From Lysobacter helvus (GTDB lineage Bacteria; Pseudomonadota; Gammaproteobacteria; Xanthomonadales; Xanthomonadaceae), in the NCBI RefSeq assembly GCF_018406645.1, contig NZ_AP024546.1:2976001-3040000 (forward strand): a stretch of 64,000 bases of DNA, read 5' to 3'. Both the position numbers and the translations under genes were made by a program. Shown in pieces: positions 457 through 10,110 of the stretch. The notes below the pieces were generated by a model that did no database searches, was not told the origin of the DNA, and worked only from the letters and a program-made list of their open reading frames with translations. The number at the start of each line of letters is the position of its first letter. The first letter of the stretch is position 1.

Positions 457-460
<4 letters not shown>
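1..460 (-). CDS. greA: Transcription elongation factor GreA (3' end outside window)
   Basis: GreA binds the RNA polymerase secondary channel and stimulates cleavage of backtracked transcripts. About 153 residues are visible, nearly full length (family about 158). The N-terminal coiled-coil hairpin includes [16 protein letters not shown], carrying the acidic tip residues, and the C-terminal FKBP-like globular part ends in REFEIV at the window edge. The ATG at 460 overlaps the carB stop as ATGA, so greA is probably translationally coupled to carB. The carAB-greA order is usual in xanthomonads. Only the last few codons are missing. Confidence 0.95.
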
Positions 461-3702
<3,242 letters not shown>

Positions 3703-3714
3703 TGCGTCCTCGAC

Positions 3715-4140
3715 TCAGTACAAACGATCCAGCCACCGCTCGCGCGGCAGCCAGGTGATCTTGTTCGCATCGGTGGCCTGCACCTGGCCGGCGTCGATGG
3801 CGGCGCGCACGCGCGCCTGCATCTCGTTCCAGCTGGGGGCCGTCGCGCCGATCTGCGCGCCGATGCGGTTGTTGTGGGCGTCCATCGCGCGCATGTCGCT
3901 GCCCTGGCCGTCGCGTTCCATCACGTGCGTGACGAGCGCGACGAGGCGCGGCGACGTCGTGTACGCGACGGTCGCGCTGGCCAGCGTGTGGCGATACGCA
4001 TCCGCGGGCCCGTTGCGCCCGCCTGGCAGGTTCGCGCTGAACCAGTGCGCGTACACCGTGCCGAGCACGAACGTCGGATAGGCCGCGAGCACCAGGAACG
4101 TGGCGGCGAACAATTTCAGTTTGCGCGAAGTCTTGGACAT
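3715..4140 (-). CDS. Small membrane-anchored protein of unknown function between carA and carB
   Basis: 141 residues, not recognised as a named family. A basic N-terminus ([11 protein letters not shown]) is followed by one hydrophobic stretch at about residues 9-30, which suggests a signal anchor or uncleaved signal. The rest is soluble and mixed, with a periplasmic look (GPADAYRHTLASATVAY, DAHNNRIGAQIG). It lies in the carA-carB operon, 12 bases before carB. Its ATG shares one base with the stop of the upstream four-helix-bundle gene. I recall a small gene at this place in related xanthomonads. Function unknown. Confidence 0.8.
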   Translation of the reverse strand: MSKTSRKLKLFAATFLVLAAYPTFVLGTVYAHWFSANLPGGRNGPADAYRHTLASATVAYTTSPRLVALVTHVMERDGQGSDMRAMDAHNNRIGAQIGATAPSWNEMQARVRAAIDAGQVQATDANKITWLPRERWLDRLY

Positions 4141-4541
4141 CAGCGGGACCGGGGACCGGGGACCAGGGACCGGGGCTCGAGCTTTTCGATCAGCGCCTGA
4201 TGGAGACGACGAAGCATCTTGCTGACCGTTTCGCAGCGCTCCAGGGCTTCGCTGATGTCGGGTTCGATGGCGAATCCGAGCGCCTTCGACAGCAATGGCT
4301 GCGTCTGCAGTTCGGCCGCGGAGCCGCACGCTTGCGAAACGAACCGCGCGTAATCGCGAGTTGTTGCGCGTGCATTGCCCTCCGCGATATTCGACGGAAT
4401 CGAAACCGCGGAACGCTGCATCTGGGACGACAACCCGAATCGCTCGTCGCGCGGAAAGGCCGACGTCAGCGAGTACACGGACGCAGCGAGGTCCATGGAC
4501 TTCTGCCAGACATCCAGTTCGCGGAAGTGGCTCGGTGTCAC
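4140..4541 (-). CDS. Four-helix-bundle protein of the S23 / 23S rRNA intervening-sequence type
   Basis: 133 residues with the hallmarks of the S23 family: [44 protein letters not shown] and a repeated-helix remainder. Such proteins occur in rRNA intervening sequences and as the Avd accessory proteins of diversity-generating retroelements; their cellular role is poorly known. The GTG start at 4541 is preceded by a GGAGGAG ribosome site and overlaps the carA stop (GTGA). The stop shares a base with the next ATG. The last dozen residues ([12 protein letters not shown]) are encoded by the right copy of a 31-bp inverted repeat. No reverse transcriptase is nearby. Confidence 0.85.
4145..4175. repeat. 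31-bp inverted repeat, copy A
   Basis: A G/C-only run with single A positions, built from repeats of GGGACCGG. It is the exact reverse complement of 4551-4581. It lies inside the 3' end of the S23-type gene, and the two copies frame that gene. Confidence 0.9.
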
Positions 4542-5707
4542 GCCGCTCCTCCCCGGTCCCTGGTCCCCGGTCCCCGGTCCCGCATCGCGTCGATGAACTT
4601 GTCGAACAAGGGCGCAACGTCGTGCGGGCCGGGGCTGGCTTCCGGGTGGCCCTGGAAGGAGAACGCCGGTGCATCCGTGAGTGCGATGCCCTGGTTGGAA
4701 CCATCGAACAACGACCGGTGCGTCACGCGCGCGTTCGCCGGCAGCGATGCCTCGTCGACCGCGAAGCCGTGGTTCTGCGAGGTGATCATCACGCGACCGG
4801 TATCGAGGTCGATCACCGGGTGGTTGGCGCCGTGGTGGCCGAACTTCATCTTGCTGGTGGTCGCGCCGATCGCCAGGCCGAGCAGTTGGTGGCCGAGGCA
4901 GATGCCGTAGGTCGGGACTTTCTTGTCTACGAAGGTGCGGATGGCGGCGATCGCGTAATCGCACGGCGCCGGATCGCCCGGGCCGTTCGACAGGAACACG
5001 CCGTCCGGCTGCATCGCGAGCACCTGGTCGGCCGGGGTTTGCGCCGGCACCACCGTGACGTCGCAGCCGCGCTCGGCCAGCATGCGCAGGATGTTCTGCT
5101 TCACGCCGAAGTCGTAGGCGACCACTTTGTATTTCGCCGGCGTGGAGGCGAACAGGTTGGAATCGAGGTCGAGCTGGCCTTCGCGCCACGAATAGGCGTC
5201 GCGCGTGGTCACGTCCTTCGCCAGGTCCATGCCTTTCAGGCCGGGGAACTTGCGCGCGGCTTCCAGCGCCTTCTCGACATCCAGCACGTCATCGGCCGAG
5301 GCCGCGGCCAGCAGCGCGCCGTTCTGCGCGCCGCCGTCGCGCAGCAGGCGCGTGAGCTTGCGGGTGTCGATGTCAGCGATGGCGACCACGCCGCGCTGGC
5401 GCATCCACTCCGGCAAGGCCTGCTGGTTGCGCCAGTTGCTCGGGCGGCGCGGCACGTCGCGCACGATGAGGCCCGCGGCCCACACCTGGCGGGCTTCGTC
5501 GTCCTGCGGCGTGCAACCGGTGTTGCCGATGTGCGGATAGGTCAGCGTGACGAGCTGGCGGGCGTAGGAGGGATCCGTGAGGATTTCCTGGTAGCCGGTC
5601 ATCGCGGTGTTGAACACCACTTCGCCGACCGACAGGCCGGGCGCGCCGACGGAAACGCCCTCGAAGATCGTTCCGTCTTCGAGCGCGAGGATGGCAGGTA
5701 GGGTCAC
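4538..5707 (-). CDS. carA: Carbamoyl-phosphate synthase small (glutaminase) subunit
   Basis: Hydrolyses glutamine and channels ammonia to CarB. 389 residues from the GTG at 5707 ([17 protein letters not shown]), chosen because no in-frame ATG lies close upstream and because homologues begin with a similar LALEDG segment. The class I amidotransferase domain shows the nucleophile motif [11 protein letters not shown], then [17 protein letters not shown] and the His-Glu motif [13 protein letters not shown]. The C-terminus is odd: after KFIDAMR the last 13 or so residues ([13 protein letters not shown]) are encoded by the 31-bp repeat at 4551-4581. The stop overlaps the GTG of the S23 gene. Confidence 0.96.
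4551..4581. repeat. 31-bp inverted repeat, copy B
   Basis: Perfect reverse complement of 4145-4175. It encodes the last residues of CarA on the minus strand and ends just before the ribosome-binding site of the S23-type gene. Confidence 0.9.
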
Positions 5708-6665: not shown

Positions 6666-6917
6666 GGACGCGAGGCTAACGGACTTCACGCGTGCGCGCC
6701 ATTCATGGATGTGTCGAAGATTTCACGCGAACAGCTCGACCGTTGCTCGCACGGCGTCCTCCACTGGTCGCCCCGTGACCCGTGTTGACCGGTCTGTCAC
6801 GCATTTCACGGTCTGCTGTTCGAAGACGACCGAACGGGGGGACGGTGCGCATCGCGCGCACGTGGCTGCCGAACGGTGCTTCGACGAAATTCCGCCGTTC
6901 TGCAGGAGCCCCTCCCC

Positions 6918-8459
6918 ATGATTTCGCTTTCCCGCCGCAAGTTCGTCCAGGGTGCGGCCGCCATGCCGCTGGCGCTGTGGCTTTCACGCAATGCATTCGC
7001 GCAATCGGCGCCCATCGTCCGCTACGACATCGCCACGCCGCAGGGCGCGGACATGCTGGCGACCTACGCCAATGCGATCCGCCTGATGCAGTCGCGCCCG
7101 GAGAACGATCCGCGCAGCTGGCTGTGGCAGTGGTACACGCACTTCGTCAACGGTGCGACCACCAAGGCCGCGGAAGTCACCCGCATCTTCGGCACGACCG
7201 TCACGCCGGAGAGCACGCTGGCCAACGACATGTGGAATACGTGCCAGTCCCATGCGGGGCAGAACACGAACCACTTCCTGCCGTGGCACCGCATGTTCAC
7301 GTTCTTCTTCGAACAGATCGTGCGCGAGGTCAGCGGTCGCGCGGACTTCTCGCTGCCTTACTGGGATTACACCTCCAGCGATCCCCTCAAGCGCGGCATC
7401 CTGCCGATCCAGTTCCGCTCGCCGAACGATCCGGTGTTCAACGTGCTGTATCGCCCCGAGCGCCTGGCGCTGGCGAACGGCGGACAACGCATCGACAAGA
7501 ACCAGCCGACCGACCAGATGGACATCACGTCCACGATGGCGACGACCAACTACAGCGTCGTCGGCGACGTGCAGGGCTTCTGCCGCGCGGTCGACTCGGG
7601 CATCCACGGTCGCATCCACGTGCTGGTCGGCAACACCAAGGGCATGGGCGCGGTGCCGTACGCGGCGCGCGATCCGTTGTTCTGGGTGCACCACTCCAAC
7701 ATCGACCGCCTGTGGGCGAGCTGGAACGCGAACTTCGGTGGCGTGAACCCGGCGACGGCCTCGTGGGCGACGAAGGTGTTCACCTTCGCCGACCGCACCG
7801 GCCAGCGCGTGAGCGGCAAGCTGAAGGACTTCTTCGACATCGCGCCGCTCGGGTTCTCGTACGACAACCTGATCTTCCCGCCGCCGCCCCCGCCGCCCCC
7901 GCCGCAGCAGCCGCCGCCGTCCGGCAGCGGCACGACCACGACGCCGAAGACCAAGGGCCACAAGCTCGTGGTGGGCAGCACCGTCGATCGCATCGCCGCG
8001 TCCACCGGCATGGCCGACCTGGGCGCCACCGCGACCAACGTGACCGTGCGTCCGATCTCCGCCGCCAAGGCCGCCACCAGCAACGTGCTGGGCCTGGCCG
8101 CGGAAACCTCGCCGCTGCGCAGCTACCTGGTGCTGAAGAACCTGCACACCTGGAAGCAGCCGGAAGTGCTGTACCACGTGTACCTCACGCCGTCCCGCGG
8201 CGGTGGCCTCAACAAGAACAACTACGTGGGCGCGATCAACTTCTTCGACGCCGAATTCCACGACCACGGCGGCGGCAGCAAGCTGGACGCAGCGCTGGGC
8301 GAGAACTTCTTCAGCTTCGATGTGACCGACCTGCTGCGTCGCTACGAACGCAGCGGCGCGGTCAGCCGCGATGCGCTGCAAGTCACGTTCGTGCCGGGCG
8401 GGAAGGCTCGCGCGGATGCAGGCGCGATGGTCGCGACCGTGGAAATCGTGCGGCAGTAA
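6918..8459 (+). CDS. Tat-exported tyrosinase / polyphenol oxidase, first of two tandem copies
   Basis: 513 residues. A Tat signal (SRRKFVQG, then a hydrophobic run to AFAQSA) implies folding with copper before export. Likely copper A ligands are His75, His112 and His124 (WYTHFVNG, CQSHAGQN, FLPWHRM). Likely copper B ligands lie in IHGRIH (230, 234) and VHHSNIDRLW (258/259). Cys109 is placed like the thioether cysteine of plant enzymes. A proline run (about 317-330) links to a C-terminal domain with NFFDAEFHDHGGG and FDVTDLL, resembling the KFDV domain of plant polyphenol oxidases. The enzyme should oxidise phenols to quinones; the substrate is unknown. Confidence 0.9.
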   Translation: MISLSRRKFVQGAAAMPLALWLSRNAFAQSAPIVRYDIATPQGADMLATYANAIRLMQSRPENDPRSWLWQWYTHFVNGATTKAAEVTRIFGTTVTPESTLANDMWNTCQSHAGQNTNHFLPWHRMFTFFFEQIVREVSGRADFSLPYWDYTSSDPLKRGILPIQFRSPNDPVFNVLYRPERLALANGGQRIDKNQPTDQMDITSTMATTNYSVVGDVQGFCRAVDSGIHGRIHVLVGNTKGMGAVPYAARDPLFWVHHSNIDRLWASWNANFGGVNPATASWATKVFTFADRTGQRVSGKLKDFFDIAPLGFSYDNLIFPPPPPPPPPQQPPPSGSGTTTTPKTKGHKLVVGSTVDRIAASTGMADLGATATNVTVRPISAAKAATSNVLGLAAETSPLRSYLVLKNLHTWKQPEVLYHVYLTPSRGGGLNKNNYVGAINFFDAEFHDHGGGSKLDAALGENFFSFDVTDLLRRYERSGAVSRDALQVTFVPGGKARADAGAMVATVEIVRQ

Positions 8460-8607
8460 GACCGCATGTGTCGCGCGCCCCGCGGGGCGCGCGACGGGAG
8501 CGCAGGGAGGCGCATGAACGACTCGTTCACTCGCATTGACTCTGCCATCACCGGGGGCACCCGAAGGTGCGGCCCATTGATTCGCACAACGCGATGAAGG
8601 AGTGGTC

Positions 8608-10110
8608 GTGACCAGCTTTTCCCGCCGTACGTTCCTGCAAGGCCTCGCGGCCGCGCCCATCGCGCTTGGCGCTTCGGGCTCCGTGTTCGCTGCGACCACG
8701 CCGGTCCGCTACGACATCGCCACCGCCGACGGTGCGCGCATGCTCGAGATCTACGCCAACGCCGTGCGCGCGATGCAGGGCATGGGCCCCGACAATCCCC
8801 TGAGCTGGTCGTGGCAGTGGTACACGCACTTCGTCAACGGCGCGACCAACAAGGCCGCCGAACTCACGCGCATCTTCGGCGACACACCGACGCCGATGCG
8901 CACGCTGGCCGAGGAAGTCTGGAACACGTGCCAGTCGCACTCCGGGCAGAACGCCAGCTACTTCCTGCCGTGGCACCGCTTCTACGTGTGGACGATGGAA
9001 CGCATCGTGCGCCAGGTGAGCGGGCATCCGGAATTCACGATGCCCTACTGGGATTACTGCTCCGCCGATCCCGCGCGCCGCGGCGTGCTGCCGGAACAGT
9101 TCCGCCTGCCGAACGACCCGGTGTACGACTGCCTGTATCGCGCCAATCGCACCACGCTCGCCAATTCCGGCCAGCCGATCCAGCTGAACCAGCCGGGCGA
9201 TGCGATGGACATCAACGACATCATGGCGAAGACGGCCTACAACACCGTCGGCTCGGTGACGGGCTTCTGCCGCGCGATCGACTCGGGCATCCACGGCCGC
9301 ATCCACACGCTGGTCGGCAACGGCCGCGGCATGGGCGCGGTGCCGTACGCGGGCAACGATCCGTTGTTCTGCGTGCACCACGCCAACATCGACCGCATCT
9401 GGGCCAGCTGGAACAAGAACGGCAACAAGAACCCGACCGATCCGATCGCCTACCCGTGGATCACCACGTCGTTCGCGATGGCCGACGCCAACGGCGCGCG
9501 CATCTCGCGCCAGGTCAAGAATCTCTACAGCGCATTGCAGCTGGGATACGACTATGACCGCTTCGTGCCGAAGCCGCCGGTGACCACCACCACGCCGCCG
9601 CCCACCACCACGCTGGCCGCCAAGTCCGCGGCCGCGACCGCCACGCGCATCGCCGCCGCGCAGACCGAAGCCGACCTCGGCGCCACGCCCACCAAGGTGC
9701 GCATGCTGCGCATCAGCGGCACGCGCAAGACGGACGTGCTGGGCCTGGACACCGACAACCGCCGCGCATTGCTCGTGCTGCGCAAGCTGCACACCTGGAA
9801 GCAGCCGGAAGTGCTGTACCACGTGTACATCACCGCGCGCCCCACCGATCCGGTGGACAACGCGCACTACGTCGGCGCGATCAACTTCTTCGACGCCGAG
9901 TTCCACGACCACGGCGGCGGCAGCAAGCTCGATGAAGCGTTGGGCGAGAATTTCTTCAGCTTCGACGTCACCGCGCTGTTGAACACGATCGCGAAGAAGC
10001 CCCACGGCGTGGCCGCGGGGAGCGAGTTGTACGTGACTTTCGTGCCGGGCGGACGCCCGGTGTCGGGTGCGAACCCGATGGTCGCTTCGATCGAACTGGT
10101 GCGGCAGTAA
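8608..10110 (+). CDS. Tat-exported tyrosinase / polyphenol oxidase, second tandem copy
   Basis: 500 residues, a paralogue of the preceding gene along its whole length. Tat motif SRRTFLQG; copper motifs WYTHFVNG, CQSHSGQN, FLPWHRFY, IHGRIH and VHHANIDRIW; C-terminal domain with NFFDAEFHDHGGG. A Thr/Pro linker (KPPVTTTTPPPTTT) replaces the pure proline run of the first copy. The GTG at 8608 was chosen over the GTG at 8602 because AAGGAG at 8596-8601 gives six bases of spacing only to the later codon. A 148-base gap separates the two genes, so they may be co-transcribed or have separate promoters. Confidence 0.9.
   Translation: MTSFSRRTFLQGLAAAPIALGASGSVFAATTPVRYDIATADGARMLEIYANAVRAMQGMGPDNPLSWSWQWYTHFVNGATNKAAELTRIFGDTPTPMRTLAEEVWNTCQSHSGQNASYFLPWHRFYVWTMERIVRQVSGHPEFTMPYWDYCSADPARRGVLPEQFRLPNDPVYDCLYRANRTTLANSGQPIQLNQPGDAMDINDIMAKTAYNTVGSVTGFCRAIDSGIHGRIHTLVGNGRGMGAVPYAGNDPLFCVHHANIDRIWASWNKNGNKNPTDPIAYPWITTSFAMADANGARISRQVKNLYSALQLGYDYDRFVPKPPVTTTTPPPTTTLAAKSAAATATRIAAAQTEADLGATPTKVRMLRISGTRKTDVLGLDTDNRRALLVLRKLHTWKQPEVLYHVYITARPTDPVDNAHYVGAINFFDAEFHDHGGGSKLDEALGENFFSFDVTALLNTIAKKPHGVAAGSELYVTFVPGGRPVSGANPMVASIELVRQ

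Follow-up and report, generated by a model that had tools for sequence, protein, structure and literature searches.

The car operon in this DNA contains a small S23-type gene framed by inverted repeats, which raises the question of whether the gene is a movable cassette, as the preliminary description of the sequence had proposed, or part of something else. The window analysed is the whole stretch of 64,000 nucleotides, and the genome to which it belongs (G000) is a single contig, 99.99% complete. The features concerned are as follows.

457 to 3702, minus strand: carB, taken from the list of open reading frames, with frame and start checked, and used as a tblastn query.
3715 to 4140, minus strand: a DUF6973 gene of 141 aa (PF22322, 32.3 bits, cut-off 27), whose start overlaps the S23 stop.
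4140 to 4541, minus strand: the S23/IVP gene (PF05635, TIGR02436), 133 aa with a GTG start, from profile scores and translation.
4143 to 4175, plus strand: the heptad array 3' of S23, (GGGACCN)4, inward-facing and encoding the last S23 residues.
4551 to 4583, minus strand: the heptad array 5' of S23, (GGGACCN)4, encoding residues near the carA end.
4538 to 5707, minus strand: carA, from its translation, with a C-terminus that extends into the array.

According to the open reading frame list and the profile search, the gene order on the minus strand is carA, S23, DUF6973 and carB. The S23 protein scored 124.2 bits against PF05635 (curated cut-off 33.8) and 116.5 bits against TIGR02436 (cut-off 24), and its predicted structure is a four-helix bundle with a mean pLDDT of 93.2, in agreement with the earlier view that a gene of this type lies between the arms. 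The described fusion with both neighbours is also present, as GTGA (4541-4538) joins the carA stop to the S23 start and TGATG (4142-4138) joins the S23 stop to the DUF6973 start. The arms are exact reverse complements, as had been stated, but they are 33 nt long (4143-4175 and 4551-4583) and not 31. Each arm is an inward-facing tandem run of the 7-nt unit GGGACC[G/A], which had been missed. Both arms are translated, the 5' arm within the end of carA and the 3' arm within the end of S23. On its upstream side the S23 start adjoins an array that includes GGGGAGGAG, likely a ribosome-binding stretch. As one array lies just before this start and an array supplies the ends of two proteins, S23 is coupled into the car operon. 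In the rest of the 64-kb window the array finder detected none of period 7.

Elsewhere in the genome, further copies of the repeat motif are numerous. The pattern GGGACCNGGGACC has 101 matches genome-wide, compared with 6 for the same pattern read backwards. Among the matches listed, it falls in at least 23 places, that of the window included, and thus in at least 22 others; the other 22 places listed are held by 21 fetched loci. Eighteen of these 22 places carry inward pairs (that of L004 with a very short left arm), and the remaining four carry a single arm. The arms mostly comprise about four units, with G or A as the seventh base, and the loops, measured by script between the innermost intact units, range from 11 to 181 nt. 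When 16 of the 18 other paired elements were compared unit by unit (L008 and L018 being shortened by the search pattern), none had the same unit order in both arms. With arms of about four units, a choice of G or A and 16 elements compared, one perfect pair is not surprising, by estimate and not by computation. This comparison weakens the perfection of the arms as a mark of recent insertion, and it led us to reject templating of one arm by the other. The profile search found a single PF05635 gene in G000. The genome therefore contains one gene and a population of short inverted-repeat elements sharing its flanking repeat, and the paired inward 7-nt arrays, hereafter called brackets, form a family spread over the genome of which the S23 gene is the one coding member.

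In many phyla, S23 genes are embedded in period-7 arrays or adjoin them. PF05635 was present in 31 of 60 genomes, our own included; the control genomes searched, E. coli among them, gave no match. Across the order it was present in 116 of 299 genomes, 85 of which had a single match and 31 two to six. Three genomes (G090, G062 and G063) have five or six S23 matches each among the matches listed. The flanks of many S23 genes exhibit inward 7-nt arrays, the word varying between genomes. In a first set, 79 of 110 S23 loci had a period-7 array within 300 nt, compared with 14 of 320 shifted windows. The full collection of 176 loci, mostly best-scoring matches and not a random draw, comprised 30 from the 60-genome search, 80 named, 26 from the order and 40 others, and was reduced to 173 by dropping three identical-segment duplicates. 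Among these distinct loci, which come from several phyla, 122 have an array within 300 nt and 56 an inward complementary pair, whereas only 29 and 1 of 547 shifted control windows do (Fisher p = 2e-67 and 4e-37, respectively, the relatedness of loci being ignored). Arrays are two-sided at 67 of the 173 loci, with the G-rich strand facing inward in 66 of these 67, and a same-strand pair is found at 2. No array was detected by the criterion used at 51 of the 173, only one of which is near a contig end.

The only other clearly raised period was 14, the double of 7, found at 43 S23 loci and 4 controls; small excesses were observed for period 8 (15 versus 5, with 8 inward pairs) and period 15 (12 versus 10), and other periods were at or near the control level. 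Other short open reading frames on the same named contigs served as a second control, with an array at 55 of 80 S23 loci versus 28 of 238 and an inward pair at 16 of 80 versus 1 of 238. Among the 16 named loci that have such a pair are representatives of Xanthomonas, Pseudoxanthomonas, Geobacter, Thiohalocapsa, Clostridia, Selenomonadales, Kiritimatiellaeota and Acidobacteriaceae. Averaged over 45 clusters formed at 60% identity, the fraction of loci with an array was 0.70, and for inward pairs it was 0.19.

The heptad is not fixed in sequence, but it follows the S23 lineage. Heptads lie within one mismatch in 97% of S23 pairs at 70-80% identity and in 95% of pairs above 80%, compared with 6% of pairs below 50% identity, and none of 2000 permutations in a Mantel test reached the observed association between heptad and S23 identity. 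Part of this tracking is plain descent. Arrays elsewhere in the genome also tend to carry the heptad of the S23 gene itself. Distant arrays on S23-bearing loci match the locus's own S23 word in 20 of 87 cases, at least two of which (L094) flank a second S23, while words of other loci give a null of 3.1%. L094, from Vreelandella sedimenti, has five further arrays within one mismatch of S23 words in one 20-kb stretch, and two of the five flank its second S23 match (2440-2778). Among the matches listed, arrays of G003 are mostly GGGAAT[A/G] and those of G046 mostly GGGAATC, in each case the word at the S23 gene of that genome. Twelve chunks from five S23-bearing genomes held 10 arrays of mixed types, 6 of them matching the own word with one mismatch allowed and none matching it exactly.

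Genomes with several S23 genes or several words speak partly for and partly against such matching. G029, G041 and G223 each have two S23 copies, with different heptads per copy. In G041 the words are GTGACGC and GGGAGGA, both of which recur elsewhere in that genome; a third word, GTGAGT, has no S23 of that word in G041 and is the S23 word of its congener G051. Eight further S23 copies fetched from multi-copy genomes had arrays in 4 cases and none in 4. G003 exhibits a second array type, GGGAACC, at L219, L223 and L224, with very short loops in two of the three, and no S23 gene with that word was found in G003. This second family is perhaps the leftover of a lost S23.

Our preferred reading, which we consider reasonably probable, is that S23 is the trans-acting partner of cognate heptad brackets, with a logic resembling that of REPIN and RAYT and with unrelated parts. 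Counting against it are the 51 S23 loci and the 4 extra copies with no array, the array-bearing genomes that have no S23 (G008, G016 and G019), the five S23-bearing genomes with hardly any hits, the array words with no S23 partner in G003 and G041, the one-base differences at glyA-nrdR in G005 and G010, and the mixed arrays of the twelve chunks. Foldseek aligned the predicted S23 model with chain B of 2gsc (Xcc0516) at TM scores of 0.81/0.92 and, more weakly, with Avd (4dwl, TM about 0.7-0.85); 8ub7 was also matched. The 2gsc entry has five chains, and the title of the paper on Xcc0516, as cited in PMC10053308, reports five bundles. As the predicted fold resembles that of Xcc0516, with its five bundles, and that of Avd, which belongs to retroelement ribonucleoproteins, we propose that a ring of S23 reads the heptad array. 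In the mechanism that we infer, an S23 oligomer, a pentamer in the solved relative, would recognise its cognate array, most likely as single-stranded nucleic acid, since the ring consists of like subunits and an arm of four units would present each with a place to dock. The ring, whose stoichiometry here is presumed from the relative, would join the two arms, and replication or repair by the host would then maintain and renew the arrays, a copying step that is likewise conjectural. Without S23, the arrays would be lost. A bolder version is possible but doubtful: S23 proteins throughout the bacteria would be sequence-specific bracket partners that drive the making and homogenisation of brackets without a transposase or reverse transcriptase, so that brackets switch word with the S23 gene.

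The closest known system is that of REPINs and RAYTs, to which G000 is similar in that a gene belonging to one family shares the genome with many short inverted repeats, whose type co-varies with the protein. RAYT genes are usually single copy. Published work describes co-evolution of TnpA-REP, an HUH transposase, with REP (PMC8266576) and persistent REPIN populations (PMC8049555). In contrast with RAYT, an HUH (Y1) transposase, S23 is a predicted four-helix bundle and G000 has no Y1 match; moreover, S23-linked arms are tandem heptads of free sequence that can frame host DNA. By analogy, the S23 system probably works like REP/RAYT without being a member, S23 presumably acting on the repeats.

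The same protein family is known from the intervening sequences of 23S rRNA, which encode an S23/IVP protein within the insert (PMC10053308). In both cases the gene lies within a hairpin-forming insert, but the S23 gene described here is outside any rRNA gene, between carA and the DUF6973 gene, and has heptad arms with dispersed arm copies. The hairpin of the rRNA insert is a general property of these intervening sequences. Avd of diversity-generating retroelements has the same fold as the predicted S23 model; nevertheless, S23 scored 22.6 bits against the Avd profile NF033474, below the cut-off of 80, and G000 has no RVT_1 match. As for the repeats, arrays of the same kind are known from Xanthomonas and Nostoc, with the heptamers GGGAATC and GGGGA(C/T)T; Rehm et al. 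(2015, PMC4692102) present them as quadruplex repeats with a functional role remaining to be elucidated. A term search of the main text of that paper found neither "S23" nor "four helix". No published link between S23 and heptad arrays was found in a literature search that did not extend to preprints and most subscription papers, and nothing on point was found on carAB in Xanthomonas or on Avd pentamers. The new part would be the link itself, since the repeats and the protein family were each already known. Once the two are linked, a single purified protein and a handful of oligonucleotides would be enough to test both the role of S23 and that of the repeats. Should arms be built around host DNA with neither a transposase nor a reverse transcriptase at work, repeats would have a new way of spreading.

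The comparison of equivalent sites between congeners bears on how brackets arise. Eight G000 sites, namely those of the 18 paired loci with three or four congener matches, gave 30 comparisons, and arms were absent in 29; the exception is L003, where G001 has arrays of GGGAAAC, the word of its own S23. Ten G003 sites, out of 14 fetched loci (L218, L225 and L231 are one-armed in the stretch, and L219 was left out), had arrays at 7 in G001, 3 in G000, 0 in G002 and 1, weakly, in G004; three composite G001 arrays (L220, L228 and L230) missed by the finder were scored by reading. At these shared sites the species' own S23 word was found in 5 of 7 cases for G001 and 2 of 3 for G000. Five of the seven sites arrayed in both species exhibit GGGAAAC in G001 and GGGAAT[A/G] in G003, the S23 word of each; of the other two, L224 carries GGGAACA in G001 and GGGAACC in G003, and at L222 the two species share one type. 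This is the pattern that concerted replacement would leave, and repeated insertion at favoured sites would leave it too.

The sole S23 of G001 and that of G003 both lie between glyA and nrdR, in a 3.3-kb alignment with 83% identity and yet with different heptad words. Among 21 of 30 returned glyA-nrdR loci that were read, S23 was found in 2, a clear short array pair in G005, G008, G010 and G021, an irregular one in G007, and neither in 14. The pairs of G005 and G010 are one base off the S23 word of their genomes. With regard to the loops, a common 9-mer is shared by 7 of 15 pairs in G001 (shuffled mean 0.7) and 19 of 153 in G000 (1.3, partly terminators); G003 has no shared loop cores, with 2 of 55 pairs (1.2). 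Between species, the counts are 8 of 66 for G001-G003 (mean 2.5, highest shuffle 7), 9 of 198 for G000-G003 (mean 2.8, highest 8) and 5 of 108 for G000-G001 (mean 3.1). Relative to the shuffles, at most G001 can be said to have species-specific cores.

These sites are relevant to the reading of brackets as RNA elements, in which the arms pair in the transcript, as those of 23S rRNA intervening sequences do, and S23 binds or guards the hairpin, mRNA processing or stability being selected and the sites kept as useful regulators. The RNA fold of the S23 segment does pair the arms, with z = -7.6 relative to shuffles, a number of elements are intergenic or surround terminators, and Rehm et al. report that most of the repeats they studied are transcribed (PMC4692102). 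However, heptads and loops differ at the same site between congeners, which is odd for a conserved regulator, and two brackets are inside coding genes, so we regard this explanation as unlikely.

The presence and absence of S23 and arrays together argue for the partnership of S23 with its brackets. When 36 genomes were scanned with one pattern, from which words such as GGGGCAC (G045) escape, at least 10 array hits were found in 13 of 18 genomes with S23 and 3 of 18 without (p = 0.002; medians 84 and 1). S23-bearing genomes with 0 or 1 hit by this pattern are G007, G013, G038, G043 and G045. The three array-bearing genomes without a PF05635 match are G008 (121 hits), G016 (34) and G019 (28); G008 is a 110-contig draft and has an array pair at glyA-nrdR, the S23 site of G001 and G003. 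The S23-less congeners G002 and G004 have almost no arrays. An unrooted tree of the five congeners from 9,350 aligned columns has the topology ((G003,G004),(G000,G002),G001). As G002 and G004 each group with a species that has S23, S23 and arrays were either jointly lost twice or gained in parallel, and the joint absence could instead reflect such parallel gain. At the site equivalent to L224, the S23-less G004 contains a ragged run, GGGAACCGGGAAACGGGAG (L291), possibly the decayed remnant of a bracket.

The three S23-less genomes with arrays are what would be expected if S23 were a passenger, the arrays arising by slippage and template switching and S23 merely persisting or inserting between them; the framing of non-S23 DNA by arms and the array words with no S23 partner are also in line with this. 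We nevertheless consider it quite improbable, given the near absence of arrays in G002 and G004, the heptad common to S23 flanks and distant arrays, and the array enrichment around S23 in many phyla.

The movable cassette remains to be weighed. At the car locus, the carA C-terminus query matched in 35 of 36 genomes with E of 1e-59 or better. As the preliminary description had anticipated, carA loci without the insert exist: in G001 to G004 the DUF6973 gene directly follows carA, with no S23 (carB itself was reached in the stretches of G002, G003 and G004, and not in that of G001). S23 lies between carA and carB in G047, G036, G056, Xanthomonas codiaei, Xanthomonas sp. F10, two Pseudoxanthomonas and Lysobacteraceae NML95-0200, so that S23 holds this place in other genera too and, within the order, in a second family. 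Because many other motif copies exist and S23 is absent after carA in four congeners, the unit is not a family-wide component of this locus with ordinary divergence and no further copies.

The patchy presence and the motif copies thus agree with a cassette, but arms also frame native DNA. At L011, L014 and L015, at least one congener has the native terminator without arms, and G000 has arms on both sides of it. At L226, only G003 of five species has arms; they enclose 32 residues without disturbing the reading frame, and the G000 protein contains this stretch as well. At L224, in a gene which we take to be dnaX, homologous coding DNA is enclosed by arms in three species, each with a word of its own. 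The framing seems to have been added around the segment and not carried along with it, which is the strangest fact of the analysis. A mobile cassette is thus too simple a description of the locus, because arms of this kind surround host terminators and coding DNA as well, and because S23 recurs between carA and carB in other genera and in a second family. The suggestion of a reverse transcriptase or Y1 transposase acting in trans was rejected for G000, as profile searches with these two models found no PF00078 (RVT_1) and no PF01797 (Y1) match in its one contig; G003, with its own S23 and arrays, likewise has neither, and G001 has one Y1 match. A classical cassette moved in trans by another recombinase could account for the patchy presence at carA-carB and for the arms absent in 29 of the 30 comparisons. 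It is very unlikely, as native loops are kept between the arms, reading of the congener comparisons revealed no consistent target duplication, and 85 of 116 S23-bearing genomes have a single match. For an IS- or MITE-type insertion, the absence of arms in congeners would fit, but the boundaries are ragged and the native loops kept.

That the repeats are G-quadruplex microsatellites to which S23 is incidentally adjacent, as proposed for GGGAATC/GGGGA(C/T)T repeats with in vitro quadruplex data (PMC4692102), is hardly credible, for although the inward strands are G-rich (43% G) and the arrays about three to five units long, GGG occurs within the unit at only 73 of 122 arrayed S23 loci (GGGACCN here has it too), and what is kept is the period and the inward pairing, not the G-tracts.

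Beyond the car operon, the window contains two similar genes side by side, at 6876-8459 and 8602-10110, which by eye look like tyrosinases.
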